Shown here piece by piece: positions 6,679-24,646 of a stretch of 64,000 nt of DNA. Position 1 is the first letter of the stretch; every line of letters starts with the position of its first letter. The DNA comes from Prosthecobacter sp. (lineage in GTDB: Bacteria > Verrucomicrobiota > Verrucomicrobiia > Verrucomicrobiales > Verrucomicrobiaceae), in NCBI GenBank assembly GCA_019186985.1, contig JABARQ010000017.1, positions 124,001-188,000 of the forward strand. The letters run 5' to 3'. The notes under the pieces are model-generated. The model worked only from the letters and a program-made list of their open reading frames with translations. It was not told where the DNA came from and made no database searches. The translations under genes and the position numbers were made by a program.

Positions 6679-6718
6679 CAGAAGCCGCCCTCACCAAACC
6701 CCAGGCCCCATTTGAAGC

Positions 6719-8197
6719 GTGGATCATGTCGCGATCTGTGTTGCGATACTCCTCTGGCTGGTGAGGCCTCAGGACTGGCTGAACGGCTTCGCCGGCGTCG
6801 GCTTCATGAAGTATGCCATGCTGGTCGCGGTCCTGGGGCTTTGGTCAAGGTCGCGTCAGATGAACTGGAAGCTGTTCCAGACACCCGCCGACTATGCCGT
6901 GACCATTTACCTGGTCTGGATCGTTCTGACCACCGGCGAATATGTCGACACTGCCAAGGAGGTTCTTCCTTTTGCCGTATTTTACTTTGCCACCGCACTG
7001 TCGCAGGACACTGCCAGGCGGCTGAGGCAGTTTCTCAATTGCTGGGTGGCTGGATTGTGCGTCGTGACCGCGTTCGCCCTGTCCACGCATTTTGGAGGCG
7101 AGTTTGCGGCAGGGTCCGCCGACCTGACTGAATATTTCGACGGGCGGCTCGCCCTGAACACCTGGATTTTCAACAATCCGAACTCTCTCGGGCACGGGGT
7201 TGTGGCCCTTGTTCCATTGGCCTATGTGTGGTTGTGGTGGCGGAGGTCCTGGATGATGAAGCTGCTGGCTGTCGGAGTCATTTATGTTGCGGGTTACTGT
7301 GTGTTTCTGACCCAGTCCAAGGGTGCCTACCTCTGCGGCGCCGCCGCCTTTGGAGTGGTCCTGGTGTTCAGAAAAAGGCTGATTGTCCAGGTGTTCCTGG
7401 TCATTCTGGCGATGACCGCCGGCGTTGCCGCCCTGAAGCTGCTGCCAAGAATGGACACAATGAGCGCCTCTGAGGATGGCATCGCCGGAAGGCTGGTCAT
7501 CTGGCAGATGGCGCATAATGCGATGGTGAACACGAACACCGGGGAGGGTTGGAAGAAGTTCGAGGCCTGGGTCACCATCCCGAAGCAGGGGGTTGTCAGG
7601 AAGGCGACTCATGGATCCTATGTCAACGTGGGGGCGGACCTGGGCTATCCCGGGCTCTTCCTGTTTCTGGCGGTGCTGTATTGCGGCGTGCGTACGGTTC
7701 TGCAGGCCAGGCCTCCGCCAGATGATGCCGAAGCGGGGCGGCTTCAGCGGGCGTTGCTCTCGTTGATTGCCTCCTACGGCGCCTCAGCCTGGATGATCGA
7801 CCGCGCCTATCACACGGACTTTTTCTTCATTGCGGGGGCGGTCGCGGCGTTTCATCGGTTGATGAGTGTTCCTGTCCGGCAGGAGGGGCGAAGTGAACGC
7901 GGTCCCGACGAGCCGTCGGTGCTGGTTCCAGTGACCGCCCTAGCAGTGGCTGCCCATGGTGGAGCTTCAGCAATGGGGGGGCTCAAGCTTGCGATGATCT
8001 CCTCTGCGGGAGACGGCAGCCCTTCCGTGGGGACTGCACGCGGTTTGGGTGAGCCTGACGATCCCGGGCCTTCTCAGTCCGGGACCTGGCTGTCCTGGAG
8101 AAAAATCGGCGTCATTGACGTCCTGCTCATCTATGGCCTTTTTGAACTCGTGCTTTACACATGGGTGGAGATCATGACCCATTTCATTTCATTCTGA
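6719..8197 (+). CDS. O-antigen polymerase/ligase-like (Wzy/WaaL) membrane protein
   Basis: 492 residues starting at GTG 6719 (VDHVAICVAIL). Roughly ten to twelve hydrophobic helices are visible. The family signature is the large periplasmic loop with GRLVIWQMAHNAM...THGSYVNVGADLGYPGLFLFLAVL, matching the Wzy_C motif of O-antigen ligases and polymerases. NPNSLGHGVVALVPL earlier is also typical. It would link repeat units or transfer glycan at the periplasmic face. Unusually, a soluble low-complexity stretch of about 80 residues (near 385-465, rich in Gly, Ser, Pro) precedes the last helix. It lies between the Wzc gene and a methyltransferase and is probably co-transcribed with both. Confidence 0.8.
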   Translation: MDHVAICVAILLWLVRPQDWLNGFAGVGFMKYAMLVAVLGLWSRSRQMNWKLFQTPADYAVTIYLVWIVLTTGEYVDTAKEVLPFAVFYFATALSQDTARRLRQFLNCWVAGLCVVTAFALSTHFGGEFAAGSADLTEYFDGRLALNTWIFNNPNSLGHGVVALVPLAYVWLWWRRSWMMKLLAVGVIYVAGYCVFLTQSKGAYLCGAAAFGVVLVFRKRLIVQVFLVILAMTAGVAALKLLPRMDTMSASEDGIAGRLVIWQMAHNAMVNTNTGEGWKKFEAWVTIPKQGVVRKATHGSYVNVGADLGYPGLFLFLAVLYCGVRTVLQARPPPDDAEAGRLQRALLSLIASYGASAWMIDRAYHTDFFFIAGAVAAFHRLMSVPVRQEGRSERGPDEPSVLVPVTALAVAAHGGASAMGGLKLAMISSAGDGSPSVGTARGLGEPDDPGPSQSGTWLSWRKIGVIDVLLIYGLFELVLYTWVEIMTHFISF

Positions 8198-10227: not shown

Positions 10228-11307
10228 TCAGGTTTTGCCACCATCGACGACAGGCTTCGGCAGCAGCCGCTTTAGCAGGGGTTTTTCAATGACGAGGTGA
10301 CAGAGGATGCCTGCTGAGACGGCCAGTGTCGCGCAGGCCAGGAGCACGGTGTCCTTGTTCGCCGGTTCGAGCAGATGCCAGCGTGAGCAAAAGGCCAGCA
10401 TGATCACCAGGGCGGGGCCATGTACCAGATAGGTTGAATACGAGGACCTGGCCAGAAAGGAAATCCAGCATGGAGGTCGTTTTCCTGCCAGGCTGCCCCG
10501 GCATTCCTCCAGGGCGGCTCCGGCGATGAGGCCGCAGAAGGCGGCGGCCCACCAGCAGCGGGTCATCAGGCGGGGCAGGGAGGACAAGGTTTGATGCCCA
10601 TACATTCCGGCCAGAATCAGGCAGCCGCTGGCAAGCAGAAGGATGCGGCCTCCCTTTCGTCCCTGCCAGTGGCGGAAGTGAAGGCAGGTCAGGACTCCGG
10701 CGAAGATCTGCAGGTGGTAGGGGCTGAAGACGAAGCGCCAGGGGGGCGAATCCGCCTGTCCCGGAAGGATCGCATGAAAGGTCACGACCCCCAGGCTCCA
10801 GGCCACCGCCGTCCAAGTGAGCGTGCGTGCGGAGCCATGGATGCCGACGATGGCAAAGATGATGTAGAAGAGCGCCTCATAAGGCATCGTCCAGGCGGCA
10901 AGAAGGACGGGATACTGCCCTGTCGGAACCAGCAGGTAGGAGGAGACAAGGGTGGATGCGTCCAGCGCCTGCTCCTTCCAGCGCCAGCCGCCAAGGGCGA
11001 GGATGATGACGACCTTGACGCTCGTGAGAATGAACAGCAGCGGGTAGAGGCGGAGGAAGCGTCCGCGCAGGAAGGCTCCTGCCTTGACGCCGGCCCCGAG
11101 GCTTCGTCCATGAACCCAGGTGATGATGAAGCCGCTCAGCACAAAGAAGAAGTCCGGCCGCAGCTGGCCCAGGCTGAACATGCCTCCGGCAAAATCCACG
11201 CCATGCTGCTGTGTGGAGATGGCTCCCACATGATGCATGACAACGGCCAGCGAGGCGAGGGCTCTTCCGGCGTCAAGCCAGTGAAGATGTGGAGGTTTGT
11301 CCGGCAC
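10228..11307 (-). CDS. Acyltransferase-3 (OafA/ExoZ-like) membrane O-acyltransferase
   Basis: 359 residues with about ten hydrophobic helices. It begins with HWLDAGRALASLAVVMHHVGAI, containing the conserved R and the essential His of the Acyl_transf_3 family, followed by FFFVLSGFIITW. Near the C-terminus SYSTYLVHGP is the usual closing motif. These proteins move acetyl or succinyl groups from acyl-CoA across the inner membrane to sugars. It lies between the sulfotransferase and a GT4, so it probably decorates the EPS repeat unit. The last helix region ends with a short basic tail. Confidence 0.88.
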   Translation of the reverse strand: MPDKPPHLHWLDAGRALASLAVVMHHVGAISTQQHGVDFAGGMFSLGQLRPDFFFVLSGFIITWVHGRSLGAGVKAGAFLRGRFLRLYPLLFILTSVKVVIILALGGWRWKEQALDASTLVSSYLLVPTGQYPVLLAAWTMPYEALFYIIFAIVGIHGSARTLTWTAVAWSLGVVTFHAILPGQADSPPWRFVFSPYHLQIFAGVLTCLHFRHWQGRKGGRILLLASGCLILAGMYGHQTLSSLPRLMTRCWWAAAFCGLIAGAALEECRGSLAGKRPPCWISFLARSSYSTYLVHGPALVIMLAFCSRWHLLEPANKDTVLLACATLAVSAGILCHLVIEKPLLKRLLPKPVVDGGKT

Positions 11308-11320: not shown

Positions 11321-12199
11321 TCAGGCGGCCTCTGGATCTAGCCTGACAGCGGACTCCTTCAGCCGGGACAGCATCTGGTCGCAGGCCGCCAGCAGCTCAA
11401 CCGGAATGGCGTCGGGCAGTTCCTTCCGCCGTTCGCGTCGCTCTGGAAACTGGGCGTAGCGCGGGTCGAGATCAAGGCCGACATAGCCGCCGAGGAAACG
11501 CAGGGCTTCCCGGGAATGGCTGACGAGGTCGGCATAGTGAATCGAGACCAGGGGCAGCTCTGGGTTTTGCGCTAGCTGATTGAAGAGAAGCTGGTTTCTG
11601 ACCAGCCAGAACAGGGCGAATCCTGCGGTGGGCGTGGTGACGAGATGCCTGTGCCTGAGGATGAGTTCGCGGGCTTCCTCCCCGAGGTCTTCAGCCTTCC
11701 AGGAGCGCTCGTTCAGTTCGAGCATGTCCTTCAGGTAGGGCATGGGTTCGTAACGGCCCCGGTAATAGGTCAGGTGGGAGAGGATGACCTCATGATAATG
11801 CCGGAAGATCCAGACGCCCTTGGATCCTGGAAAGCGCTGAAGAAGCTCCGCTGCGCGCTGGCTGTCATGCAGCGGCTTGATGAGAAGGACTTCGCTCCGG
11901 CACCGGGAAGCGATCCTTTCGACCTCATCATCGGGCAGCAGGCGAAGGTAACGCGGGTCGGCCTCGGACCCCTGCCAGAAGTAGGGAGGGTCCCCTTCTC
12001 CCTGATCATCAACCCGGGGGTCGAAGCCGATGAAGCTTCGCAGCATCGTGGTGCCGGAGCGCTGGCAGCCGAAGACAAAGACAATGCGCGCCCGGTCGCT
12101 CGGGTTCAGGGCCTGATGAATCCAGGTGCGCAGCTTGTTGACCTTGTAGGAGGACAGGATGCGCCAGCGGAGGGCGGCGAGCATGGGTTCGTCAGACAT
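11321..12199 (-). CDS. PAPS-dependent sulfotransferase
   Basis: 292 residues. The 5'-phosphosulfate-binding loop is clear: ARIVFVFGCQRSGTTMLRSF. The segment GVWIFRHYHEVILSHLTYYRGRYEP fits the family's 3'-phosphate-binding region (R..R..S pattern), and VSIHYADLVSHSREALRFLGGYVGLD the conserved C-terminal helix. It would transfer sulfate from PAPS to a sugar hydroxyl. It is first in a reverse trio with an acyltransferase and a GT4. The EPS operon also encodes CysC, which makes PAPS, so a sulfated polymer is a reasonable inference. Confidence 0.85.
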   Translation of the reverse strand: MSDEPMLAALRWRILSSYKVNKLRTWIHQALNPSDRARIVFVFGCQRSGTTMLRSFIGFDPRVDDQGEGDPPYFWQGSEADPRYLRLLPDDEVERIASRCRSEVLLIKPLHDSQRAAELLQRFPGSKGVWIFRHYHEVILSHLTYYRGRYEPMPYLKDMLELNERSWKAEDLGEEARELILRHRHLVTTPTAGFALFWLVRNQLLFNQLAQNPELPLVSIHYADLVSHSREALRFLGGYVGLDLDPRYAQFPERRERRKELPDAIPVELLAACDQMLSRLKESAVRLDPEAA

Positions 12200-12262: not shown

Positions 12263-13513
12263 ATGGAAGCAAATCCTTCACCCCGCGTTGAAATGAAGAA
12301 GGCCGATGCCGAGGTCTCCCTGGTCTTCAGGCATTTTCATCCCATCCTGGCGGGGGCTGCGGAGCGTTTCCGCCGATACAGCGTGCCGCTGGCCGCACAT
12401 GGAATGGGCTATGAAGTGTTCACCCTTCGTGAGGATGCGTCGCATCCGGCTCAGGAGGAGATGCATGACAGGCTGCGTGTCAGGAGAATTTCCGCAGAAG
12501 GGAAGCCGTGGCAGCGGGACGCCGTGCTGTTTGAGGCGGCATGGCGGCATCTCTCGGCCCTGCCGGCAAAGGGGCATGTGCTGCAGACCTCGCTGGCCCA
12601 TGACCTTTCCTGGCCCTGGCTCCGGCGCGTCCGAAATCACGGAACTGGCTGCCTTTATGTCGGCACGATGGTGGGGCGTGAGGACACCTCCCTGCCTGCC
12701 TGGCGAAGGCTTGTCCAGAGATGGAAGGCCTGGCGGAACTACCGGCCCTTCCATCGTGTGGTGGTCAGCACCACGGTCATGGCACGCTGGTTTCAAAGCC
12801 AGGGCGTGGCGGCTGAACGAATCCAGGTCATCCCCAATGGTGTTGACTTGAAGCGCTTCAGGCCGGCGTTGGATGTGCCTGAAAAGCTGCACCTGCGCAG
12901 CCGTCTGGGCCTGGAGGCCGCCGCGCCTGTGGTTCTCTTCGCCGGCAGCATCGTGCCGAGAAAGGGGATCGACCTGCTTCTGCAGGCCTGGCCTTCGGTC
13001 CTCGCACGCGTGCCTGACGCCCGGCTGGTGCTGGTCGGCGGTTTTGACAGGCCGACTTTCATGACGAAGGAGCGGATGAACGAGCTCTCCCGGTTCCAGG
13101 AGGAGATGCGGACGCTTGCTGCGCGAGAAGAGTGCCGGAATTCGGTCACATTTGCGGGGGAAAGCTCCTGTGTGGAGGAGTGGATGCGCGCTTCCGACGT
13201 GTTTGTGTTTCCCACGGAGCAGGAAGGCATGGGCAACGTCGTGCTGGAGGCGATGGCGAGTGCGATCCCCTGTGTGATCACCGAGTTCCACGGCCTTCCG
13301 GAAAAGGAGTTTGGGAAGGCGGGAGCGGAGTTTGTCCTGGTGCCCAGAACGCAGGAAAGCCTTGCAGACGGCCTTGTTCACGCCCTCCAGGAACCGGACA
13401 GGTCTGGCGTCATGGGCAGGAGGGGGCATGAATGGGTGAACCGGGAGATGGGCTTTGATCTGACCATTGACCGGTATGCGCGGCTTTATCACGGGCTTGC
13501 CGGACTGGCCTGA
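12263..13513 (+). CDS. GT4-family glycosyltransferase
   Basis: 416 residues, GT-B fold. The N-terminal loop is HPILAGAAERFRRYSVPLAAHGMGYEV. The C-terminal half has VLFAGSIVPRKGIDLLLQAW and the E-x7-E motif in PTEQEGMGNVVLEAMASAIPCV. It stands alone on the forward strand between two reverse blocks, divergent from the sulfotransferase trio (63-base gap). Its last 25 bases overlap the end of the convergent SGNH-like gene. The first ten residues are poorly conserved in character and an internal ATG at 12293 (MKKADAE) is possible. Confidence 0.87.
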   Translation: MEANPSPRVEMKKADAEVSLVFRHFHPILAGAAERFRRYSVPLAAHGMGYEVFTLREDASHPAQEEMHDRLRVRRISAEGKPWQRDAVLFEAAWRHLSALPAKGHVLQTSLAHDLSWPWLRRVRNHGTGCLYVGTMVGREDTSLPAWRRLVQRWKAWRNYRPFHRVVVSTTVMARWFQSQGVAAERIQVIPNGVDLKRFRPALDVPEKLHLRSRLGLEAAAPVVLFAGSIVPRKGIDLLLQAWPSVLARVPDARLVLVGGFDRPTFMTKERMNELSRFQEEMRTLAAREECRNSVTFAGESSCVEEWMRASDVFVFPTEQEGMGNVVLEAMASAIPCVITEFHGLPEKEFGKAGAEFVLVPRTQESLADGLVHALQEPDRSGVMGRRGHEWVNREMGFDLTIDRYARLYHGLAGLA

Positions 13514-14703
13514 ACCAGCATCGATTTCAGGCGCGCCATTTCTTCGACATGGGTCTTCTGGTAGTTTCTGAAGGCCTGGTCAACGGCCCTGATATGGGCG
13601 TCCAGCGTGCCGGCGGCCAGTGCATGTCCGAAATCTCCCGGAGGTTTTGCGCTGCCGGCATCCGTCTGCCATCCGAGGGTGATGTCGAGAAGCTGCTTGC
13701 CGAGGACCTTGTTGAAGTGGCTTGCTTCGTAGTAGTAGCGTGCGAGTCCGGCAGCAGGAACGGGATCGGTGGTCTGGGGCGTGCAGACTCCAAAATCGAG
13801 CAGGGGGAAGGGTGTTTTTCCGCCGGCCTCCTCGGTCACGAGCCTGAGGAGGGCGCGTTTCCAGTCCTGGTACATCTGCCAGCGTCCCTGGAGTTCAAGG
13901 ATGGTGAGATAGCGGACATGCATGGGGGAGAGGGCAAGGCGCAGGTCGATGTCCCTGGCTCGCGCCAGCCTTAGAATGGCAGCCAGGTGCCCGAATTCAG
14001 TGTCGCCAAGCCGGGCGTTGTGATCGACCTGGCCGCCGAGCACCTTCGCCTCATAAGCGGCAAAGGCCCTGATGGCGCCACCCTTGGAGAGAACACGGCT
14101 GTCCTCGGAGGCCGCATCCCGTGAGCCGTCCGGGAGGTAGCGTTTTTCACCCTCACGGCCTCGGAGTGTTGCCAGGCTCCCTTCCAGGGCGCTCCAGGTC
14201 AGCAGGCCGGCAGGCAGATCACACCAGACACCCGAAGCACCAGGGCTGCCATCCGGGCGGATGGCCAGACGTTCTTCCAGAAAGTCAGGCGCAACGGTTC
14301 CTCCAGCGAGGAAAGAAGTGAAATCAAGGAGCACCACGACCTGCCTGACTTCACCAACGGCGCAGGCATGCTCAAGGTACCTCCTGACCTCATAGATGCT
14401 CGCGTTGGAGAGGCCGAGGTTATAGACTGGATGAGCCGTCCATCCGGGGTGCGCCGGGTCGAGGCCGGTTTCAGCACGTGAGCTGCCAAGGATGAGGGCC
14501 TTCGGCTTCAGGTGCCGGGTCTGCGCGGCCTTCACCATGCGCAGATGGGTGAAGGTCTCCGGCTTGTCGACGGCATGCAGCCAGTCGGTTGCGAACAGGC
14601 CATAGGGGTTGACCGCCCGGTTGACGAGTGCGGTCACTGCACAGGTGGCGAGCACCGTGCAGGCAAGCTGACGCAGATACCTGCCTTGGACTGACGGCTC
14701 CAT
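13489..14703 (-). CDS. SGNH/AlgX-J-like secreted protein, MBOAT partner (paralogue 1)
   Basis: 404 residues with an N-terminal signal anchor (LACTVLATCAVTALVNRAVNPYG). LILGSSRAETGL resembles the nucleophile block of SGNH acyl-esterases (Ser in G-S-S-R), and YYYEASHFNKVLGKQLL near residue 340 supplies a C-terminal His. VLSKGG and SPMH are shared with the protein at 19091-20257, giving a clear paralogous pair. It starts 1 base after the MBOAT stop. In alginate and cellulose acetylation an MBOAT protein carries acyl groups across the membrane and an SGNH partner (AlgJ/AlgX) attaches them, so this role is inferred. The family name itself is uncertain. Confidence 0.6.
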   Translation of the reverse strand: MEPSVQGRYLRQLACTVLATCAVTALVNRAVNPYGLFATDWLHAVDKPETFTHLRMVKAAQTRHLKPKALILGSSRAETGLDPAHPGWTAHPVYNLGLSNASIYEVRRYLEHACAVGEVRQVVVLLDFTSFLAGGTVAPDFLEERLAIRPDGSPGASGVWCDLPAGLLTWSALEGSLATLRGREGEKRYLPDGSRDAASEDSRVLSKGGAIRAFAAYEAKVLGGQVDHNARLGDTEFGHLAAILRLARARDIDLRLALSPMHVRYLTILELQGRWQMYQDWKRALLRLVTEEAGGKTPFPLLDFGVCTPQTTDPVPAAGLARYYYEASHFNKVLGKQLLDITLGWQTDAGSAKPPGDFGHALAAGTLDAHIRAVDQAFRNYQKTHVEEMARLKSMLVQASPASP

Positions 14704-14704
14704 G

Positions 14705-16234
14705 TCAGAACTGGAAGTAGAGGAACTCGCTCAGCCTGCCCAGGTGCAGCAGGGCGAGGGCGAGCATGAGCCCGGAGAGGACCGCCCACCCAAGTGACGG
14801 GCGCCAGGTCCATCTGGACGGGCTGGAGGGAAGGGATGGCTGGTTGGAAGGCGTGAGGCTGCCAGCGGCGATCTGCAGGGCGTTGGGAAGCAGGAGCACA
14901 GCTGCGAGCAGCACCGCGACATCAAGAAGCTGTGAGTAGGACTGGAACACCATCCAGTCGGACCGTCCTGCCACGCCGAAGGGCTTCAGCCAGGACAGCC
15001 TGGCGAGCCATGAGGCCGGGACCTCGATCCCAGCCGAACCAAACATGCTGCCAAGCAGGGACGAGGCGGTGCGCAGGTCCGGGGCTCGAAAGAAGGTCCA
15101 GCCGATGACGACGGTGAGGAAGGTGAGCGGCCAGGAAAACAGGACGGCAGGAAGGCCTGAGATCCTCCTGCTGAGCGCCGTTTTCATCCAGGCATGGTTG
15201 ACGAGGAGAGCCAGCCCGTGCCACAAGCCCCAGAAGCCGAAGGTCCATCCGGCACCGTGCCAGAATCCGCCGATCACCATGACGAGCAAGAGGTTGACGT
15301 TGCGCCTGAACTCGCCCTTCCGGTTGCCCCCGAGCGGGATGTAGAGGTAGTCACGCAGGAACAGGGAGAGGGTGATGTGCCAGCGGCGCCAGAAGTCGAC
15401 GATGCTGAGAGCCTTGTAGGGGGAGTAGAAATTTCCAGGCAGGCTGACGCCGAAGATTCGTGCCAGGCCGAGGGCCATGTCCGAGTAGGCGGAGAAGTCG
15501 AAGTAGAGCTGCAGGGTGTAGGAAAGCACCGCGAGCCAGGCATCAAGCATGGGAACATGCTGCACATCATGAACATGGTCGAAGACAGGGCTGACCCATT
15601 GCGCGACATGGTCTGCCAGGACCATCTTCTTAAACAGGCCGATGCTGAGCAGGGTGAAGCCGATGGAAAGATCCTCCCAACGGAAGGCCCGGGTGCGCCG
15701 GTCCTTGAGCTGGGGCAGCATCTCCATGGGGCGGACGATCGGCCCCGCGATGAGCTGCGGAAAGAAGGTCACATAGAGCAGGTAGTGCCTGAAGGTGGTT
15801 CCCTGGGCCCTGCCGGCGCGGCAGTGCAGCAGGTAGGTGAGCTGGTGGAAGGTGTAGAAGGAGATGCCGAGGGGCAGCTCCAGGGGCTGGCCTTCCCAGG
15901 AATGACCGAAGAGGGCGGCGACATTGGAGGCGGCGAAGTGCCAGTACTTGAACCAGGCAAGCAGGCCGAGATTGACCACCACGCCGGCCGTCAGCAGCCA
16001 GCGGTGGCCGCCGGTGTCCGGAAGGGCCAGCCTGCGGCCCAACCAAAAATTGCTGCTGACAGAAATGAGCAGCAGGGGGACGTGGGCCGGGTTCCACCAG
16101 CCGTAGAAGAACACCGAGGCTGCGGCGAGCCAGGTCCAGGCGGCCTCAAGGCCGAGGCGTCGGAAGGCCAGCCCGAAGCCAAGCATCGTCAGCGGCAGGA
16201 AGACGAAGAGGAAGATCGCGGAGTTGAACAGCAT
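14705..16234 (-). CDS. MBOAT-family O-acyltransferase, AlgI-like
   Basis: 509 residues, polytopic. The start MLFNSAIFLFVFLPL is typical of the AlgI/DltB branch. PYKALSIVDFWRRWHITLSLFLRDYLYIPLGGNRKG and the catalytic-His block IGGFWHGAGWTFGFWGLWHG are both intact. Such proteins pass acetyl groups to the periplasm for O-acetylation of exported polysaccharide. The neighbouring SGNH-like gene (start 14703) is its likely partner. It belongs to the long reverse operon that starts at cysC. Confidence 0.93.
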   Translation of the reverse strand: MLFNSAIFLFVFLPLTMLGFGLAFRRLGLEAAWTWLAAASVFFYGWWNPAHVPLLLISVSSNFWLGRRLALPDTGGHRWLLTAGVVVNLGLLAWFKYWHFAASNVAALFGHSWEGQPLELPLGISFYTFHQLTYLLHCRAGRAQGTTFRHYLLYVTFFPQLIAGPIVRPMEMLPQLKDRRTRAFRWEDLSIGFTLLSIGLFKKMVLADHVAQWVSPVFDHVHDVQHVPMLDAWLAVLSYTLQLYFDFSAYSDMALGLARIFGVSLPGNFYSPYKALSIVDFWRRWHITLSLFLRDYLYIPLGGNRKGEFRRNVNLLLVMVIGGFWHGAGWTFGFWGLWHGLALLVNHAWMKTALSRRISGLPAVLFSWPLTFLTVVIGWTFFRAPDLRTASSLLGSMFGSAGIEVPASWLARLSWLKPFGVAGRSDWMVFQSYSQLLDVAVLLAAVLLLPNALQIAAGSLTPSNQPSLPSSPSRWTWRPSLGWAVLSGLMLALALLHLGRLSEFLYFQF

Positions 16235-16246
16235 GGCGCTTCTGGG

Positions 16247-17380
16247 TCAGGTGGAGGCTGCGGCAAGGATGCGTCCTGCAAAGTCTGCCGCCGGGTCGGA
16301 GGGGATGTCGAGCCGGATTCGCTCATGGGCGGAACGGCCCATGGCCTGCCAGCGACCACGTTCGCTCCAGGCTCTTTCAAGCGCCCGGCCGATGTGGAGC
16401 ACGGAGGCTGCCTCGGCGACGAAGCCGTTTTCACCGTCGGTGATCAGTTCGGCATGGCCGGCCACGTCCGTGACCAGGGCCGGGCGTCCGCACATCAGCG
16501 CCTCGACCAGGGAGAGTGGCATGCCCTCGTTGCGTGAAGGCTGGGCGATGAGGTGATGGTCGTTCCAGATGTTCTGGACCGCAGAGACATGGCCGCCGAA
16601 GCTGACCTGGGAGCCGAGGCCGAGCAGGCGGGCCAGTTTTTCAAGGCCACGCCGGTTTTCGCCGTCGCCGAAGAAGGTCAGATGCAGCGGACGGTCACGC
16701 CACTGCGGAGCCGCAAAGGCCTGCAGCAGCAGGTCATGACCCTTGGCCCGGGTCTGAAGCCGGGCCACGCAGGCCATGCGCCAGGTTTCGTCCCCGGCGG
16801 GCCAGGTGAACGGGATGTCCCTGTCCACCTTCACGGGATTGCGGACGACTTCGGCATTGCCCAGCCTGGAGCCGATGTGGTGTTCAAACTCCTCGATGTT
16901 GCGCGCCGCCACCCAGTAGGTGCGCGCGGCGGAGGTGAAGGCAGGGCGCAGGCGGTCGGCAATGTCGTCGGAGGGCCAGACGGCGGGATTGACCCCATGA
17001 GTGACAATCTGGCTGGGGATTCCAAGAACCATCGCCAGTTCCATGAAGGACAAGGCCGAGATGTCATTGCCTTCGGAAAAGACAATGGTGTCCGGTGCTG
17101 ACGCCTTGATGGCCTGCCGTGCTGCGGCCAGCTCCCATCTTTCATGTGGCAGGAAGCGTCGCAGCAGCTTCATCAGCCTGCCTGCCTTTGCCGCGAGGTT
17201 GAGGTGCCGGACCTGGATGCCGGCCTGGCTGAGGGGGGAAAGGCGCTCCGGGGAGCTTTTGCGCCAGTTGACGGCGGCCGAGACCTGATGGCCTGCGGCT
17301 GCAAGCTTCACGGCAGCCTCGATCCACAAGGTTTCGCTGGCCCCGGTTCCATGATGAGAGCTGATGAAGAGGATCTTCAT
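16247..17380 (-). CDS. GT4-family glycosyltransferase
   Basis: 377 residues. The N-terminal Rossmann half begins MKILFISSHHGTGASETLWIEAA with a Gly-rich loop. The second half contains ACVARLQTRAKGHDLLLQAF and the E-x7-E motif in PSRNEGMPLSLVEALMCGRPALVTDVAG. It overlaps the upstream GT2 stop by 4 bases (ATG over TGA), so translational coupling is likely. It is probably cytoplasmic or membrane-associated and adds a sugar to the EPS repeat unit; donor and acceptor are unknown. Confidence 0.9.
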   Translation of the reverse strand: MKILFISSHHGTGASETLWIEAAVKLAAAGHQVSAAVNWRKSSPERLSPLSQAGIQVRHLNLAAKAGRLMKLLRRFLPHERWELAAARQAIKASAPDTIVFSEGNDISALSFMELAMVLGIPSQIVTHGVNPAVWPSDDIADRLRPAFTSAARTYWVAARNIEEFEHHIGSRLGNAEVVRNPVKVDRDIPFTWPAGDETWRMACVARLQTRAKGHDLLLQAFAAPQWRDRPLHLTFFGDGENRRGLEKLARLLGLGSQVSFGGHVSAVQNIWNDHHLIAQPSRNEGMPLSLVEALMCGRPALVTDVAGHAELITDGENGFVAEAASVLHIGRALERAWSERGRWQAMGRSAHERIRLDIPSDPAADFAGRILAAAST

Positions 17381-18144
17381 GGGGATTCCTGGAAGGGGGA
17401 TGGCTTGCGTTTCCTCAGGGCGCCAAAGGCGTATCTGAGGAAGCAGGGCAGCGCCCTGGTCAGGGGCAGGTTTTCATAATGCCGGAGGATGCGCCAGCGT
17501 GCCAGGGCGGCCTTGACCTTGTTGCCGGAGCGGCTGTGCGCGGCGTGCCTGTAGACGGCCAGCGTGTCAGTCAGGCCCTGGGCCACGGTCTGGCGCAGCA
17601 GCCTCAGCCAGAGAATGAAGTCCTCATGCAGGTGCTCCTCGAAGCGGATGTCAGGAAACCGGGAACGACGGACCATGGCGGTGAGGCAGCCGAGCAGGTT
17701 GTCATTCAGCAGATCGTCGTAGGTCAGGCGTGCCGGCGGCGTGACCACGTGCGGCAGGCGCTGGCCGGTCCAGTTCATCTGTGCGTAACCGGTGTAGCTG
17801 AGATCACAGCCCGTGCGTTCCATGAACTCCACCTGCCGTTCGAGCTTTTCGGGAAGCCAGAGGTCATCGCTGTCGAGGAAGGCAAGGAAGCCGCCGCTGG
17901 CACGCTGGATGGCCTGGTTGCGGTTGAAGACGCAGCCGCCCTGGGACAGGCCGGAGATGGGCTTAACACGCCGATCTTTGGTGGCGTAGGACGTGGCGAT
18001 GTCGTGCGTGCGGTCGGAGGAGTTTTTGTCGACGACCAGCAGCAATTCCCAATCCGGCCAGGTCTGTGCCAGGACGGAGTCGACGGCCTCAGCGAGGGTC
18101 TTTTCCGCGTTGTAGGCGGGCATGATGATGGACACCAGGCTCAC
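17377..18144 (-). CDS. GT2-family glycosyltransferase
   Basis: 255 residues if it starts at GTG 18144-18142, which overlaps the TGA of the upstream GT2 (GTGA). That start puts the family's opening SLVSIIMPAYNAEKTLAEAVDSVL at the very N-terminus. The longer frame to 18303 would overlap the neighbour by 160 bases with an Arg/Pro-rich, non-family sequence. GT-A motifs seen are the first nucleotide-binding Asp region (LLLVVDKNSSD) and the metal-binding DxD in FLAFLDSDDLWLPEKLE. An inverting transferase using UDP- or dTDP-sugars is typical. Confidence 0.87.
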   Translation of the reverse strand: MSLVSIIMPAYNAEKTLAEAVDSVLAQTWPDWELLLVVDKNSSDRTHDIATSYATKDRRVKPISGLSQGGCVFNRNQAIQRASGGFLAFLDSDDLWLPEKLERQVEFMERTGCDLSYTGYAQMNWTGQRLPHVVTPPARLTYDDLLNDNLLGCLTAMVRRSRFPDIRFEEHLHEDFILWLRLLRQTVAQGLTDTLAVYRHAAHSRSGNKVKAALARWRILRHYENLPLTRALPCFLRYAFGALRKRKPSPFQESP

Positions 18145-19094
18145 AGGAAGCGGTTGTGGAAGCGTTTGACGAAGCCTCCGGCAATGCCGAGGCGGCGTGA
18201 GAGGGCGGCAAGGGCCCAGGCTGCGGGATACTGCCAGGCGAAGGGCTGGTGCCTGGCTGCCTGCCAGAGGGCGCGTTCGGAGTTCACCTTGTCCGCCGGC
18301 CACAGGGCCTTGCCAAGCTTGCCCTGGTAATAGGCGAAGGCCTCGTTGAACTCAGCCGGAGTGTTGAGGGGATTGGTCCGGTGCTTGCCAAGGCAGTAGA
18401 CGCCGGCCTTGTAAAGCCGTGTCTTGTTCTGGCAGGCGGAGGCGGCATGCTGACGATAGAGGCATGTGATCTCCCGGACGTGCTGGAATTTCACGCCCTC
18501 GGCGCCAAGCCTGAGCCAGAGGTCGAGGTCTTCCGCGTGCTGGATGGCGGGCTCTTCATCGAACAGCCCGGCCTTCAGCAGAAGGTCACGCTTCATCATC
18601 AGGGCCGAGGGCAGGATGTGGCAGCCCTTGACGAGGTAGCGCAGGACTTCGTCGGTGGATTGAAACCGCCAGCCCCAGGTGCGTTCGGACACGGACGGGT
18701 CGGTGTCAGAGTAGCCGCGCGCGCAGGCAAAGACGACTTCTGCGCCGCTGGCATCACGGGCGTCGGCGAGGGTCTTGAGGTGGTGCGGCTCCCACATGTC
18801 GTCGGAGTCGAGAAAGGCGATCCATTCTCCGGAGGCCTCCCTGATGCCCCGGTTGCGTGCCGCGCTGACTCCCTGGTTCTTTTCCTGAACAAGGCAGCGC
18901 ACGGGGAAGCCGGGGTGCAGCGCCGCATATTCTTCGACCACCCTCACGGTGGAGTCGGTGGAGCGGTCGTCGATCACCAGCACTTCTGCGGGGGCTAGCG
19001 TCTGGCTGCGGATGCTGTCCAGGGTCGGCAGGATGAGGATCTCCCTGTTGTAGGCGGGGATGACGACGCTGACCGTTGTGGATCCTTGATTCAT
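18141..19094 (-). CDS. GT2-family glycosyltransferase
   Basis: 317 residues starting at ATG 19094-19092, whose ATGA overlaps the stop of the SGNH-like gene upstream. GT-A motifs: VSVVIPAYNREILILPTLDSI, then VLVIDDRSTDSTV, and the DxD in WIAFLDSDDMWEPHHLK. The C-terminal 90 residues are helical and basic without a visible membrane segment. It is probably one of the enzymes building the EPS repeat unit, and it shares the GT2 core with the gene just downstream, though the two diverge beyond the first 110 residues. Confidence 0.89.
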   Translation of the reverse strand: MNQGSTTVSVVIPAYNREILILPTLDSIRSQTLAPAEVLVIDDRSTDSTVRVVEEYAALHPGFPVRCLVQEKNQGVSAARNRGIREASGEWIAFLDSDDMWEPHHLKTLADARDASGAEVVFACARGYSDTDPSVSERTWGWRFQSTDEVLRYLVKGCHILPSALMMKRDLLLKAGLFDEEPAIQHAEDLDLWLRLGAEGVKFQHVREITCLYRQHAASACQNKTRLYKAGVYCLGKHRTNPLNTPAEFNEAFAYYQGKLGKALWPADKVNSERALWQAARHQPFAWQYPAAWALAALSRRLGIAGGFVKRFHNRFL

Positions 19095-20257
19095 GATTTG
19101 GTTAGGGGTGCCCATGCCTTGTGGAGCGTCTGAAGCCTGTCCTCCAGGCTGTCGAGGGTCACGGGCACGCCGAAGTCCCGGGCGCCGTCAGGCTTGTTTC
19201 CAAGCACTCGGTCCAGCATCATGGCGCCGACGCGGGTGGAGAAGTGCGAGTATTCATAAAAAAGCGGCAGATTGCCGGCGGCTGCGTCGCTGATGATGTC
19301 GTCGATGGTCATCCTGGTCAGGGCTGTGCCGTCAAAATCCCAGAACGTCTGCCTGCCAAGGCCGCAGGCGTCCGCCTCCTTCTGGATGATCTGGACCAAG
19401 GAGCGGCGCCAGCCGAGCACCTCCCCGATGCCGTCACGCTCGATGAAGAGCCGCCAAAGGTGGTCGTGAAAAGGGGTGATGACCCAGACTGGCCGGACCT
19501 TTTTTGCCGCGGCGACGCGCACCATCCTGCGCAGGGGCTCCCAGTCCTTGGCCAGGTCGGTCTTCTGCCTGGGGAAGCGGGAGTCAGTGAGGTTGAAGGA
19601 GCGTCTCAGCCCGCCTTTGGAGAGGATCTTGTCATAGTGGACCTTCTCATTTCTTCCGCCCTCGGGGAGGAAGTCTCGTCCGGATGGAGGTGTGCTCAGG
19701 CAATGGAAAGCCGCCGACAGGCCGTTCCAGGAGGCGAAGGCCATGCGCAGGTCAGCGGCCCGGCTTGTCCAGAGCGGGCCACGGTCCAGCCTTGAGAGCC
19801 GGCCAGGATCAAAAGTGTGCTGATTTTCGGCAAGCCTGTCGCAGGAGGCATAGTCGAGCATGATGAGAGCCTCCTGGAGCGGGGCGACGGAGCAGCAGTG
19901 TTCAAACCAGGCGCTCATCTCCGAGATCGTGGTGCCTGAAAAGGCCATGTTCAGCACAGGCGGATGATTCCAGGCAACATGCTCCGTGGGAATGCCAAGC
20001 TCCGGTCTTGAGGTGCCGATGATGACTGTTCCCGGCCTGATCCTGCCGGCCAGGTGCGCCTTGGATATCCTTGGCTGAACCAGCCTGGCGTCTTTGGACG
20101 GGAGGATGTCGAAGGGGTTCTGCCAGGCGCAAAAGGCCGCAGCCAGACCAAGGAATGCGGCAAGGGCGAGAAGCAATGTCTTCAGGAACCTTCGATGAAT
20201 GGAAGGCGCTGCGACCGGGGTGCCGGTGTCGTGAGTTTCTTTCGCTTCGGCCGCCAT
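19091..20257 (-). CDS. SGNH/AlgX-J-like secreted protein (paralogue 2)
   Basis: 388 residues: a short polar N-terminus, then one signal-anchor helix (TLLLALAAFLGLAAAFCAW). It shares ordered motifs with the protein at 13489-14703: NPF, VIIGTSRPELG (Ser block), MLDYAS, ILSKGGLRRSF, TPFHDHLW, FWDFDG and YEYSHFSTRVG (C-terminal His). A Ser-His SGNH-like fold acting in the periplasm is inferred, perhaps as a second acyl acceptor or donor partner for the MBOAT protein. There is only one MBOAT in the window for two such paralogues. Confidence 0.58.
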   Translation of the reverse strand: MAAEAKETHDTGTPVAAPSIHRRFLKTLLLALAAFLGLAAAFCAWQNPFDILPSKDARLVQPRISKAHLAGRIRPGTVIIGTSRPELGIPTEHVAWNHPPVLNMAFSGTTISEMSAWFEHCCSVAPLQEALIMLDYASCDRLAENQHTFDPGRLSRLDRGPLWTSRAADLRMAFASWNGLSAAFHCLSTPPSGRDFLPEGGRNEKVHYDKILSKGGLRRSFNLTDSRFPRQKTDLAKDWEPLRRMVRVAAAKKVRPVWVITPFHDHLWRLFIERDGIGEVLGWRRSLVQIIQKEADACGLGRQTFWDFDGTALTRMTIDDIISDAAAGNLPLFYEYSHFSTRVGAMMLDRVLGNKPDGARDFGVPVTLDSLEDRLQTLHKAWAPLTKS

Positions 20258-20265: not shown

Positions 20266-21051
20266 TCAGGCCTTTTCCGGTGCGATCTCCCTCGGGATGG
20301 CGACGATGTTCTGGAAGGTGAAGATCTCACGCTCCACCACCTTCAGCCTGTCAAGCGCCACCATGCCGTCGCTGAGCAGCCTGTAGAGACGGTGGCCGGG
20401 AAGGCGCTGGACGAACTGATCCAGGAAGAGCCTGCGCGCGACGTGCAAAGAGTTGAACTCAAACTGGATGATGCCGATGCCGTTGTTTTCCAGGGCCCTG
20501 GCCGCGCCGTTGAGGACGTCCATCTCAAAGCCCTCCGTGTCGATCTTGAGGAAGTCGATGCGTGCCAGGCCTTCCTTTTGCATGAACTGGTCCAGTGTCG
20601 TCACCTCAACATCATGCACGACGATGTCATCCTGATACAGGGTGCGGATGGAATCCTTGGAAAGCGATGCATAGACGGATCCATCCACGCCCTTGCGGTC
20701 AAAGAGTTCGGCACGTCCCGGGCTGGCGCCCAGAGCGCAGGCGTGCAGCCTGACGGATGTGGCGGCGCCCTGCTTCAGCCCGGCAAAGGTGCGTGGGTGA
20801 GGCTCAAAAGCGTGGACGACAGCGTCAGGAAATGCCTTCAGGAGGAGGTTGCTGTAGTCGCCATGATGCGCGCCGACATCCAGCATGACGGGCTGCGGGA
20901 CCTTGATCAGGGAGGGCAGGAGCTGCTGGACGGCCCAGAGCTCCCCGGAGCCCTCCATGGTGCGCCAGTTGTTGAAGCCCATGCCTTTCAACGACAGGTG
21001 GTAGAGCCAGCGGTGGACGGCGAAAAGTCGGCGGCGTGCTTGAAGTGGCAT
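20266..21051 (-). CDS. FkbM-family methyltransferase
   Basis: 261 residues. Motif I VMLDVGAHHGDYSNLLLKAFPDAVVHAFEPHPRTF and the FkbM hallmark IDFLKIDTEGFEMDVLNGA are both present, the latter including the KIDTEG core. FkbM-type enzymes O-methylate polyketides and sugars. The gene lies 9 bases upstream of the SGNH-like gene and 20 bases downstream of a second, frameshifted FkbM gene. The N-terminal 40 residues (LQARRRLFAVHRWLYHLSLKGMG) are helical and basic. O-methylation of the EPS is the likely role. Confidence 0.88.
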   Translation of the reverse strand: MPLQARRRLFAVHRWLYHLSLKGMGFNNWRTMEGSGELWAVQQLLPSLIKVPQPVMLDVGAHHGDYSNLLLKAFPDAVVHAFEPHPRTFAGLKQGAATSVRLHACALGASPGRAELFDRKGVDGSVYASLSKDSIRTLYQDDIVVHDVEVTTLDQFMQKEGLARIDFLKIDTEGFEMDVLNGAARALENNGIGIIQFEFNSLHVARRLFLDQFVQRLPGHRLYRLLSDGMVALDRLKVVEREIFTFQNIVAIPREIAPEKA

Positions 21052-21070: not shown

Positions 21071-21824
21071 TCAGGCGGAGGCGTTCAGCACGGGGCTGTC
21101 TTGAGGCACGAAGAGCAGGTCAAAGTGATCCAGCATGTTGGCATCGTCATGATGCGGGGCGATGAGGTCGAAGAGCACCCACCCGCGTGATTCCATGAAG
21201 TTCAGCAGCTCTGACATCCGGCAGGCTCCCGCCTGCCTTTCCCTGGGGGGTGCCTTCGATCATGACCAGGGAGCATTTGGGCAGGGTTTCGACGGCTCCC
21301 TGAAGGACCTTGAGGTCGTAGCCCTCGGCGTCGATCTTGAAGAAGATGGGGGCCGGCAGCGGGTGCTCCCTGAGGAGGTTGTCGATGGTGCGGATGGGCA
21401 CCTGGACCCTTTCGGTCGCGGTGGTCTGATCGGCCGGGCCGAGGAGGGAGGAGGATTCCCCCTTGGCAGCCACCTGGAATTCGGCGGTGCCTTCGACATC
21501 ACCGGCGGCGACGCAGGCGATCCTCACGTCAATGCCGCGGGCCTTGGAGTCGCGGGCATGTTTTTCGAGCGTGGGGAGGCATTCCTTCCGGGGCTCGATG
21601 AGGAGCTGGGCAGCCTTTGGAAAGCGGCTCCAGATGGCGGGGGTTCCCAGTTCGGTGCCAACATCGATGATGGAGGCGGCCTGAAGTCCGCGTGAGATGG
21701 CAAAGTCGAGCGCGCCGCGGGTGCCCTGCCGGTGGCAGCGGCGGTGCATGCGCTGATGGACGTCACGCCGGACGATGGTGTGGGGGATGATGCGGATGGC
21801 GCGGCGCAGCAGGGAGGTGATCAT
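21071..21824 (-). pseudogene. FkbM-family methyltransferase with a +1 frameshift near its 3' end
   Basis: The first frame (from ATG 21824) reads a normal FkbM protein to MIEGTP at about residue 195, including the core FFKIDAEGYDLKVLQGA. It then crosses a run of six C on the coding strand (21245-21250) and continues with non-family sequence to a stop at 21147. Removing one C gives a continuous second frame (MSELLNFMESRGWVLFDLIAPH...MLDHFDLLFVP) to a stop at 21071, which is the expected FkbM ending. The full span of 754 bases is 251 codons plus one base. Either the gene is damaged, it is phase-variable at the C tract, or the base is a sequencing error. Confidence 0.85.
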
Positions 21825-21852: not shown

Positions 21853-23130
21853 TCAGGCCGGTGGCAGCGGGTGGGTGGGGTCACCGTCCAGGTGCCGGAT
21901 CATCGGCCCCCAGTACAATTTATCCGCCTTGATGGTGAAAGGCGCCAGTCCCTGGACGCGAGCAGGGTATTTGGAGGTCCTGACTTCCTGGAACTGAGCG
22001 ACGATGGAATAACGTCCTCCATTCAATTCCAGCCTGCCGAGCTGGATGCAGGTTTGTGACTGATGGCGCCCGGAATCTGCAGCCTGCCGCCACTCATGGG
22101 GGACGTTGGGAAAGCACATCACCGGGTTCAGCCCCTGGTCCAGCACATAGAGGGTCAGGGTGACCGGCAGGCAGGAGGAGTCGATCATGGCGTTCAGATG
22201 GAGTTCGGCGTGGTCACCCTGCTGGATTTCCACACCAGGGGCGGATGAGGCGGCAGTTGAGCCCCTGGGCCTGATGACCGCTACCTCCACCACCGCCTGG
22301 CCGGAACCGGTGACGCTGACGGGGGTGTCAAAGCACTCCATGTAGGCTCCGATGCCTTCACCGATGTTCGCGGTGTGGGTGTGCACACGTCCGTTGCGCA
22401 TGACCATCACGTCAGTGCAGAAGGTCGAGATCCACTGCATGTTATGGGAGACGAAGATGACTGCGGAGTCCGCCGCCATTTCACGCACGGCGTTCAGGCA
22501 CTTCATGGTGAACCCCATGTCCCCGACGGCAAGGACCTCGTCCAGGAGCAGGACGTCAGGCTTGGTGACCACGGCTGCGACGGCGAAGCCGAGACGCACC
22601 TGCATTCCGGAGCTGTAGCTTTGAACGGGAGCGTCGATGAATTCGCCGATGTCGGCGAAGGCCTCGATGGCGTCGAACTTGGCCTCGATCTGCTTCCGGC
22701 TCATGCCGAGGATGGAGCCGTTCACATAGACGTTCTCACGTCCGGTGAGGAGGGGGTTGAAGCCGGCGCCGAGTGCGATGAGGCCGCCCACCCTTCCCCG
22801 CAGCTCCACCTGTCCGTGGTCCGGCTTGATGAGGCCGCTGAGCATCTTGAGAATGGTTGTTTTGCCGGCGCCGTTTTTTCCGATGAGGCCGAGGCATTGT
22901 CCGCGCCTGACCTGGAAGGAGATGTCCTCGACGGCCCAGAATTCATGAGGCCGCAGCGAGGGCCTGGAGCCTTGCTGTGCGTCCTTCGGGGTGCCCACGG
23001 GCTGCCAACCCATGAAGTCATGGATGATGTCCTGGACGCCATAGAAGAGAGACCTCTTCAGGTCGCGGCAGAAGCGCTTGCCGAGATGCCGGCAGTCAAC
23101 CAGGACATCATCATCAGTGGACACGGGCAT
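21853..23130 (-). CDS. ABC transporter ATPase with Wzt-type C-terminal domain
   Basis: 425 residues. ATPase motifs: Walker A LIGKNGAGKTTILKML, signature YSSGMQVRLGFAVA and Walker B VLLLDEVLAVGD. These are characteristic of the TagH/KpsT/Wzt polysaccharide exporters, including the spacing and the preceding WAVEDISFQVRRGQ. The last 170 residues resemble the Wzt C-terminal beta-sandwich that binds the modified end of the glycan (for example VEIQQGDHAELHLNAMID). In O9a-type systems that domain recognises terminal methyl/phosphate caps, and FkbM methyltransferases lie just downstream here. Confidence 0.9.
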   Translation of the reverse strand: MPVSTDDDVLVDCRHLGKRFCRDLKRSLFYGVQDIIHDFMGWQPVGTPKDAQQGSRPSLRPHEFWAVEDISFQVRRGQCLGLIGKNGAGKTTILKMLSGLIKPDHGQVELRGRVGGLIALGAGFNPLLTGRENVYVNGSILGMSRKQIEAKFDAIEAFADIGEFIDAPVQSYSSGMQVRLGFAVAAVVTKPDVLLLDEVLAVGDMGFTMKCLNAVREMAADSAVIFVSHNMQWISTFCTDVMVMRNGRVHTHTANIGEGIGAYMECFDTPVSVTGSGQAVVEVAVIRPRGSTAASSAPGVEIQQGDHAELHLNAMIDSSCLPVTLTLYVLDQGLNPVMCFPNVPHEWRQAADSGRHQSQTCIQLGRLELNGGRYSIVAQFQEVRTSKYPARVQGLAPFTIKADKLYWGPMIRHLDGDPTHPLPPA

Positions 23131-23156
23131 GGGGGGTGACGTGGGGAGGGTTCGGG

Positions 23157-24020
23157 TTACATGCCCATCCGGGCGGTCAGATGGGGCATGGCGGTGCGCA
23201 TTCCTGAGAGCATCAGGCCGATGACCAGGACGGCGCCTCCGGCGACCAAGAGAACGTCAGGGATTCCTGAGGGCTGGCCATGGAACACCCAGTCACGCGT
23301 GGAAAGGATGACCGGGGTGACGGGGTTCCAGGCCATGAATTCGGCGAAGGCCCCCGTTTTAGGGGGCGGATAAACGACGGGGGCCAGGTAGATGGCCACG
23401 GAAAAGAACAGCACAAGCCCCTGCTGGACGTCGGCATACAAGGCGCTGAGCGGCAGAAGAAGCAGGGCGACGGCAAAGCCCAGGAGCACGCTGGTCGCGA
23501 CGGCGAGGGGGACGAGCGCCAGGGTGGTCTGAAGGGAGGCGCCGTAGTAGATGAAAACTGCGCTGGCGACCAGGATGTAGAGCACGCTGTCAAAAAGGGC
23601 GCGGAGCGGGGCGACGGCCAGGAATGCGCCGAGCGGGATCTTCAGCTTGGAAAAGACGGGCTTGGAGAGCTGGAAGATCTGGAGGGGCAGCACGGCGGCC
23701 CGGTTGAAGCTGCTCCAGAGGATGGTGCCCACCAGCACGAAGAGGGGGTAGGGGATGTCCGGATCGGAAAAGGCGACGACGCGGGAGCGGTTCAGGATGA
23801 TCCAGACCACGGTGGTGGCCAGGGGGGGCAGGAACAGCCATACATAGCCCAGCAGGCTGCCCCGGAAGGTGGCCTTGAGGTCACGGCAGAAGAGGATCCA
23901 GGTCATCTCGCGGTGAGTCCAGAGGTCCTGAAAGGCCAGCAGCAGCGAGCCCAGGGGGCTGCTTGAGCCTGGTCCGCTTTGATAGCGGGTGATTCGCACG
24001 GGCTTGGTCGGGTCGGTCAT
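23157..24020 (-). CDS. ABC-2 type polysaccharide exporter permease, Wzm-like
   Basis: 287 residues with six hydrophobic helices. The cytoplasmic start SLLLAFQDLWTHREMTWILFCRDLKATFRGSLLGYVWLFLPP and the amphipathic sequence RDLKATFRGSLLG are hallmarks of the Wzm/TagG/KpsM group. It lies 26 bases before the ATPase gene and its ATG overlaps the TGA of cysC (ATGA). Together with the ATPase it would move a completed glycan across the inner membrane. Confidence 0.92.
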   Translation of the reverse strand: MTDPTKPVRITRYQSGPGSSSPLGSLLLAFQDLWTHREMTWILFCRDLKATFRGSLLGYVWLFLPPLATTVVWIILNRSRVVAFSDPDIPYPLFVLVGTILWSSFNRAAVLPLQIFQLSKPVFSKLKIPLGAFLAVAPLRALFDSVLYILVASAVFIYYGASLQTTLALVPLAVATSVLLGFAVALLLLPLSALYADVQQGLVLFFSVAIYLAPVVYPPPKTGAFAEFMAWNPVTPVILSTRDWVFHGQPSGIPDVLLVAGGAVLVIGLMLSGMRTAMPHLTARMGM

Positions 24021-24646
24021 GAGCGTGCCGGGTGAAGGGTGGCTGAAGCCAGGATCTGCCGCGTCAGATGCTCCACGCAGTCCTGAATGCTGGATTCGCC
24101 GGTGCGGAGGATGATTTCGGGAGCCTGAGGCTCTTCATAAGGTGAGTCGATGCCGGTGAATCCGCGGATTTCCCCGGTCCGTGCCTTGCGGTAGAGCCCC
24201 TTGGGGTCGCGTTGCTCGCAGATGTCCAGCGGTGCGCTGACATGAACCTCCATGAAGGTCACGCCATCCGCAGCGCAGGATTCCCTGACGCGCTGCCGGT
24301 CGGCGGAAAAAGGGGAGATGAGAGAGCAGATCACGATGACGCCCGCCTGGGCCATCAGCTTGGCGACCTCGCCGGTGCGGCGGATGTTTTCCGACCTGTC
24401 CTCGGCGCTGAATCCAAGATCCTTGCAGAGGCCGTGGCGGAGGTTGTCGCCATCCAGGATGTAGGAGGGGCGGCCGGATTCGTGAAGCCGTGCATCAAGT
24501 CCGACGGCCATGGTGGATTTGCCGGAGCCGGACAGTCCGGTGAGCCAGACAACCAGTCCGCGCTGGCCGAGGAGGTGGGAGCGCATCTGGTCCGACACGC
24601 GCGTCATCGTCCAGGACAGGTTGCCTGACACAGGGGAGGTGTTCAT
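24017..24646 (-). CDS. cysC: Adenylylsulfate kinase (APS kinase)
   Basis: 209 residues. P-loop VWLTGLSGSGKSTMA, YILDGDNLRHGLCKDLGFS, and the family signature KGLYRKARTGEIRGFTGIDSPYE are all intact. It phosphorylates APS to PAPS using ATP. It is the first gene of the EPS operon and overlaps the Wzm permease by 4 bases, so it is probably dedicated to the EPS pathway and not to cysteine synthesis. No ATP sulfurylase (CysD/N or Sat) is visible here, so APS must come from elsewhere. The sulfotransferase at 11321-12199 is the likely user of PAPS. Confidence 0.95.
   Translation of the reverse strand: MNTSPVSGNLSWTMTRVSDQMRSHLLGQRGLVVWLTGLSGSGKSTMAVGLDARLHESGRPSYILDGDNLRHGLCKDLGFSAEDRSENIRRTGEVAKLMAQAGVIVICSLISPFSADRQRVRESCAADGVTFMEVHVSAPLDICEQRDPKGLYRKARTGEIRGFTGIDSPYEEPQAPEIILRTGESSIQDCVEHLTRQILASATLHPARS

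Follow-up and report, generated by a model that had tools for sequence, protein, structure and literature searches.

A 64,000-nucleotide stretch of Prosthecobacter sp. DNA (assembly GCA_019186985.1, contig JABARQ010000017.1, positions 124,001 to 188,000 of the forward strand; the whole stretch is called the window here, and positions count from its first letter) carries one MBOAT gene, P0003, together with two paralogous genes for SGNH-like proteins, P0001 and P0002, and in related genomes MBOATs of the same lineage stand beside one or the other of these two partner types alone. We interpret the locus as a MBOAT-SGNH acyl relay acting on a surface polysaccharide, wherein one MBOAT would feed two alternative terminal transferases in parallel, and we put the probability of this interpretation at roughly 0.55. 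The features upon which the argument turns are given below.

13489 to 14703, minus strand: P0001, downstream-type (D-type) partner, 404 amino acids, SGNH-like; no Pfam or NCBIfam match
14705 to 16234, minus strand: P0003, MBOAT, 509 amino acids; passes the curated cut-off of PF03062 (97.9 bits, cut-off 27)
14708 to 14725, minus strand: FLYFQF (FXYXXF), C-terminal acyl-shuttle hexapeptide with candidate acyl-Tyr506; from conservation, function as in PMC12148441
15257 to 15259, minus strand: H326 of P0003, within WHGA; candidate for the catalytic His, invariant in 8/8 aligned MBOATs, by analogy with PatA/DltB (PMC12148441)
19091 to 20257, minus strand: P0002, upstream-type (U-type) partner, 388 amino acids, SGNH-like; no Pfam or NCBIfam match

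Both partner genes are real open reading frames (ORFs), as an earlier note on this DNA had proposed, and the note's picture, in which two SGNH-like paralogues share a probable operon with a single MBOAT, is supported. Eleven predicted genes, from an adenosine 5'-phosphosulfate (APS) kinase gene (24646) to P0001 (13489), share the minus strand, no gap between them exceeding 95 bases, and, judging by this spacing, likely form one transcription unit. P0001 starts 1 base past the stop of P0003, the distance that the note had given, and P0002 makes no contact with the MBOAT gene, three glycosyltransferase genes of the same strand lying between them. At the protein level P0001 and P0002 are full-length paralogues with the low overall identity first reported (25% over 390 columns, E 3e-34, BLASTP), and their Smith-Waterman score of 311 stands against a shuffled mean of 36 (standard deviation 5, maximum 55; 500 shuffles), a test that rejects chance sharing of motifs. 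All four motif pairs claimed previously do occur in the same order (GSSR/GTSR, LSKGG/LSKGG, SPMH/TPFH and EASHF/EYSHF), with the qualification that LSKGG is not family-wide as a motif. With the four shared motifs masked the score is 214, and the shuffled maximum again 55; as such, the homology of the two proteins extends past the motifs.

The candidate nucleophile of P0001 is S75, accompanied by E326/H329 and also by N95, D127, P260 and H262, and that of P0002 is S83, accompanied by E335/H338. Throughout the 53 partner matches G73, S75, P260 and H329 (P0001 numbering, as below) are invariant, while position 326 is Asp in 41 and Glu in 12, with Glu in both window proteins. N95, D127 and H262 are less uniform, being found in 45, 36 and 37 of the 53, and in 36, 34 and 34 of the 37 closer rows. 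These residue counts use all 53 matches; the partner alignment (A5) holds 37 of them and omits a near copy of L014 (L015), an over-long ORF (L131) and fourteen that are smaller and mostly weaker (L022, L024, L026, L048, L052, L057, L058, L060, L062, L065, L068, L070, L074 and L075). In terms of the SGNH blocks, the GxS of block I is present (G and S each 53/53), its Ser presumably acting as nucleophile, and the D/ExxH of block V lies downstream of that Ser, i.e. in canonical order; as regards the oxyanion hole, to which block II contributes a Gly and block III an Asn, N95 and D127 are tentative candidates. Each protein also has a hydrophobic segment near its N-terminus. Given the Ser-first order, the partners are not of the AlgX/AlgJ type and have the layout of DltD and PatB. 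AlgJ and AlgX are circularly permuted, with DxH before the Ser (PMC4148444), such that the earlier choice of these proteins as comparison template was mistaken, and membership of P0001 and P0002 in that group was rejected by residue order (in P0001, S75 and then ExxH at 326-329).

P0003 had been called AlgI-like; it is indeed a MBOAT, but the label is loose, as its best curated model is DltB (TIGR04091, 161 bits, under its cut-off of 375) and its nearest solved structures by sequence are likewise DltB. Searches of the window's genome, which is 96% complete, with both PF03062 and P0003 itself turned up no other MBOAT. Among plasmids 136 records matched P0003, every one at less than 60% identity. 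The last six residues, FLYFQF, fit the published FXYXXF acyl-shuttle motif; FLYFQF or FIYFQF ends all eight aligned close MBOATs, in which H326 and Y506 are both invariant, and FXYXXF falls exactly at the C-terminal end of 94/94 MBOAT ORFs of at least 440 amino acids in the window and the loci examined, all of them picked by similarity to P0003. The motif is absent from both ORFs shorter than 440 amino acids, one of which is cut by a contig end. To judge from these sequences, the tail is ordinary for MBOATs of the P0003 kind. In PatA, the Tyr of a C-terminal FXYXXF is auto-acetylated from acetyl-CoA, PatB takes acetyl from the acetylated motif peptide, and the Dlt system carries this motif on a small protein, DltX (PMC12148441); by analogy, this suggests that the FLYFQF tail is the route by which the acyl group leaves P0003. 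The FXYXXF tail is also seen in MBOATs whose neighbours fall outside the present partner family.

Evidence on how the two partners relate to the MBOAT comes from other genomes. A P0001 relative was found in 9/96 genomes in a first search, the window's own included, and adjoins an MBOAT in all of the other eight. A P0001-type gene stands alone, directly downstream of the MBOAT, in G007, G005, G037 and G039, and a P0002-type gene stands alone, directly upstream of a same-strand MBOAT, in G020, G058 and G048 (gaps of 21, 58 and 169 bases, respectively); a genome-wide profile search recovered one partner gene in each of these seven. The remaining genome, G040, has a distant member of the partner family downstream of its MBOAT. 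In the MBOAT tree (36 of 96 MBOAT ORFs) the window groups with G007 and G020 (100/99), both of which are genomes of the window's genus, and G007 and G020 are sisters (97/92), the former with a P0001-type and the latter with a P0002-type neighbour. In the partner trees (34 rows, then 31 with three long-branch rows dropped) D-type and U-type form separate groups with support of 100/98 and 100/100 (100/99 and 97/99 in the earlier tree). The G020 MBOAT thus falls inside the D-pairing MBOATs although its own partner is U-type.

The partner and MBOAT trees disagree, and forced agreement is rejected. For the MBOATs, a group of the four D-partnered ones that excludes that of G020 costs 15.3 log-likelihood units (p-AU, the p-value of the approximately unbiased test, 0.035), a group of window, G007 and G005 that excludes G020 costs 47.5 (p-AU 0.0003), and a placement of G020 among the remaining U-partnered MBOATs costs 71.0 (p-AU 9e-11); for the partners, moving the G020 partner into the D-type group costs 24.9 (p-AU 0.0125). 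A sister relationship of the window and G020 MBOATs withstands the test (p-AU 0.33). For the two partners, an origin by duplication within the genome was rejected (p-AU 0.0001). The U-type gene directly adjoins the MBOAT on its upstream side in G020 and is separated from it by three genes in the window; the two U-type partners share 32% identity where the MBOATs share 82%; on these grounds the comparison leans towards separate acquisition as the source of the two-partner state, as against an ancestral pair with differential loss. In G020, the place that P0001 would occupy between the MBOAT and a convergent glycosyltransferase gene holds two ORFs (L018:1244-3238), one with an AT3 (acyltransferase family 3) domain and one with an AT3-type SGNH domain.

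The same comparison raises the prospect that the second partner was acquired recently, is replacing the first and has no distinct function, i.e. that one partner is redundant or a decaying duplicate. The G020 locus has only the U-type, the four other relatives only the D-type, and the window could be a transition state between them; the disparity of 32% and 82% identity points the same way. Yet both ORFs are full length and keep all candidate catalytic residues, their GC content (0.627 and 0.618) matches that of the window (0.622), and duplication within the genome is rejected by the test above. The U-type pair of G058 and G048 gives nonsynonymous and synonymous divergences (dN, dS) of 0.105 and 0.645 over 387 codons, a measure for which the window copy has no close enough relative. 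We regard a redundant or decaying partner as improbable.

One MBOAT with two SGNH proteins is itself already known, as are MBOAT-SGNH relays in general: AlgI with AlgJ and AlgX in the alginate operon and WssH with WssI and WssF in that for cellulose have been so described, and AlgJ is proposed to be an intermediary and AlgX the terminal transferase (PMC4148444, PMC10302187). It could accordingly be argued that P0001 is an AlgJ-like intermediary handing the acyl group on to P0002 as an AlgX-like terminal transferase, and the presence of both genes in a single same-strand run is compatible with such a series. The window partners, unlike the permuted alginate proteins, have the Ser before D/ExxH. 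Against a series, they are paralogues of similar length and layout, and each type occurs alone beside a related MBOAT elsewhere, so that neither seems to need the other there. Since each type alone accompanies one MBOAT lineage, each is probably sufficient by itself, which favours parallel over serial action, and we consider a serial relay quite unlikely. For the same reason, the note's still tentative suggestion that two positions or two glycans would be acylated is somewhat better supported.

In the parallel relay that we favour, P0003 would pick up an acyl group at the cytoplasmic side of the membrane, acetyl drawn from acetyl-CoA being the likeliest, and its His326 would load this group onto Tyr506 of its own FLYFQF tail at the outer side. 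From the tail the group would pass to the active-site Ser of one of the two membrane-anchored partners, P0001 (Ser75, Glu326/His329) or P0002 (Ser83, Glu335/His338), and that partner would attach it as an ester to a hydroxyl on the glycan that the products of the surrounding genes make and export. Both partners would draw on P0003, working in parallel upon different positions, residues or glycans, and they may be viewed as interchangeable modules: alongside the same MBOAT lineage, a single type is kept in each of the relatives and both types in the window's genome.

As to how common such an arrangement is, the partner family is present in 10/68 genomes of the window's taxonomic family, with two members in the window's genome alone. 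Relatives of P0001 and P0002 were found neither in the assembled genome contigs searched, nor in viral contigs (query A1), nor in plasmids (query P0001). The ratio of partners to MBOATs was counted in 17 of the 23 genomes with a partner-family match (omitting G040, G147, G245, G402, G414 and G472); one genome scoring took the best four candidates per genome. With MBOATs of at least 350 bits the window's genome stands at 2:1, G261 and G329 at 4:3, and the remaining 14 at 1:1 or below, while counting every MBOAT match at E <= 1e-20 brings G261 and G329 to 4:4 and leaves a partner surplus in the window's genome alone. Of 30 loci fetched for a partner match, 28 contain an MBOAT. Genus g28 has blocks in the order partner-MBOAT-MBOAT-partner (L110, L116, L119), and a block in G329 (L113) has two MBOATs with three partners. 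MBOATs of this genus occur as tandem pairs, flanked on one side or on both by partner genes (L110, L113, L116, L119, L127), and the six g28 genomes examined have two to four partner genes each, in three tree groups.

The fold of the partners was predicted from the two window sequences only. VIA-align with the resulting weak models lists 50 rows for each, mostly SGNH/GDSL enzymes. For P0001 the best is TesA (Z 9.7, root-mean-square deviation 3.6 over 151 residues), with PatB at Z 9.2 and DltD at 8.3; for P0002 it is again TesA (Z 10.1, deviation 3.7 over 142 residues), with PatB at 8.1 and DltD at 7.1. Assuming a gap-free start of the aligned rows, Ser75 and Ser83 both lie opposite residue 10 of Escherichia coli TesA, which we take to be its nucleophile. 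These results support, without proving, a flavodoxin-like SGNH fold for P0001 and P0002. The earlier note had proposed superposition of Ser and His on an SGNH active site as a test of the SGNH-like reading; the structural rows and the invariance of both residues (53/53) do not refute that reading, while superposition of the triad stays tentative in models with mean predicted local distance difference test scores (pLDDT) below 46.

Several observations must be set against our reading. The mean pLDDT of the models is 43.7 (P0001) and 45.5 (P0002), Foldseek finds nothing in the PDB for either at E <= 0.001, and SGNH enzymes stand in its lists side by side with aldolases, carbonic anhydrases and other proteins. 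A best Z of 7 to 8 is usual for models that have no clear match, such that 9.7 and 10.1 are only moderately above, and the TesA His, presumably residue 157, falls 3 residues off H329 and 2 off H338 when counted from the alignment ends. Neither partner has a Pfam or NCBIfam match at threshold, a match to PF04914 (DltD), or a match among PDB sequences in a single-sequence phmmer search, and the 37-row partner profile finds no significant SGNH structure in the PDB. Its matches there to dynein heavy chains (some 58 positions, E between 0.008 and 0.014) were judged chance, and further ones were NUP88 (0.21), AlgX (0.27 and 0.3) and glutamine synthetase (0.84); Pfam over the same 37 rows gave Lipase_GDSL_2 in 2 (best 0.021), other weak matches, LigB at 0.0066 the best of them, being judged chance. 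The groups constrained in the trees were chosen after the first tree had been seen, which makes the p-values optimistic; the G020 partner sits on a long branch, and its genome is 68% complete, with a P0001-type gene possible in the missing part. A partner surplus is rare, occurring in 3/17 genomes at the 350-bit level, or in the window's alone when every MBOAT match counts. Last, P0002 stands three genes from the MBOAT and may serve another acyl donor, e.g. the AT3 protein encoded at 10228-11307.

This last point leads to a further explanation, namely that P0002 is independent of P0003, being either an O-acylesterase or the SGNH partner of that stand-alone AT3 protein. SGNH enzymes include esterases, many of the structural matches are esterases, and the AT3 gene has no fused SGNH domain match. 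Against this, the U-type relatives in G020, G058 and G048 adjoin a same-strand MBOAT, and 31/37 partner ORFs of the window and the 30 partner-match loci lie within 200 bases of one, although P0002 is among the six that do not. We judge independence of P0002 from P0003 unlikely, and retain the parallel relay as the preferred account.

With respect to the characterized systems, the window resembles PatA/PatB in its MBOAT, which ends in FXYXXF, in a separate SGNH protein that an N-terminal helix may anchor (PMC12148441), and in the Z-scores to PatB obtained with the weak models. It differs in having two partners, which show no detectable sequence similarity to solved PatB, and in neighbours that point to an exported glycan and not to peptidoglycan. 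DltB is the closest curated and solved MBOAT to P0003, and DltD is comparable to the partners in size (about 400 amino acids), in an early Ser and late D/ExxH, and in its Z-scores. The shuttle motif, however, is fused to P0003 where Dlt has it on DltX, and PF04914 matches 1/37 partner-family members, at E 0.13 only. No DltA or DltC family was found among the 16 neighbouring proteins in the Pfam scan, a genome-wide search for them not having been made.

The genes surrounding the MBOAT and its partners are as follows.

10228 to 11307: AT3 acyltransferase, 359 amino acids, without fused SGNH domain; PF01757 at 7.6e-29, its sole family match
11321 to 12199: sulfotransferase-like protein, downstream; PF13469 at 7.7e-10
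16247 to 17380, minus strand: glycosyltransferase (Glycos_transf_1 type), from the Pfam scan
17377 to 18303, minus strand: glycosyltransferase family 2; probably starts further in than listed, given a 163-base overlap with the next gene
18141 to 19115, minus strand: glycosyltransferase family 2; overlaps the 3' end of P0002 by 25 bases
20266 to 21051, minus strand: FkbM-type methyltransferase, from the Pfam scan
21147 to 21824, minus strand: FkbM-type methyltransferase, from the Pfam scan
21853 to 23130, minus strand: ABC transporter ATPase (PF00005), which we take to be of the polysaccharide-export (Wzt) type
23157 to 24020, minus strand: ABC transporter permease, called Wzm-like from its position and resemblance alone; no Pfam match at E 0.001
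24017 to 24646, minus strand: APS kinase; PF01583 at 2.4e-68

The first two of these are likewise on the minus strand. We read these neighbours (glycosyltransferases, methyltransferases, ABC exporter, APS kinase, sulfotransferase-like protein and AT3 protein) as a surface-glycan locus. At locus L014 the pair adjoining the MBOAT matches ABC2_membrane and ABC_tran. As the glycan genes are flanked by the APS kinase and sulfotransferase-like genes, the polymer may be sulfated besides being acylated. The locus also seems to carry Wza/Wzc/Wzy-type genes (3597-8197) alongside the ABC exporter pair (21853-24020), labels that come from reading translations for 3597-6678 and from a Wzy_C match for 6719-8197. 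A glycosyltransferase gene on the plus strand (12263-13513) runs towards P0001 and shares 25 bases with its 3' end, and a similar convergent gene lies at the corresponding place in L012 and L018, where translations were read.

The new part of the present work is the exchange of partners beside one MBOAT lineage; our searches of open-licence papers brought up neither a description of exchangeable partners of canonical order beside one MBOAT lineage nor one of this partner family, which is described here without a Pfam or NCBIfam model having been found for it. The locus and its relatives amount to a natural experiment on how a MBOAT recognizes its SGNH partner and what determines acceptor specificity, in which the MBOAT is nearly constant and the partner varies, the window having both types and related genomes either type alone. 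It is tempting to postulate, tentatively and at somewhat less than even odds, that a MBOAT with an acyl-Tyr tail serves as a common acyl outlet that would accept SGNH-like transferases of differing acceptor specificity, and that in bacteria of this group the acylation of the surface glycan may be re-patterned by exchanging, losing or adding partners while the MBOAT is kept, the window representing, with one tail for two transferases, the two-partner state.

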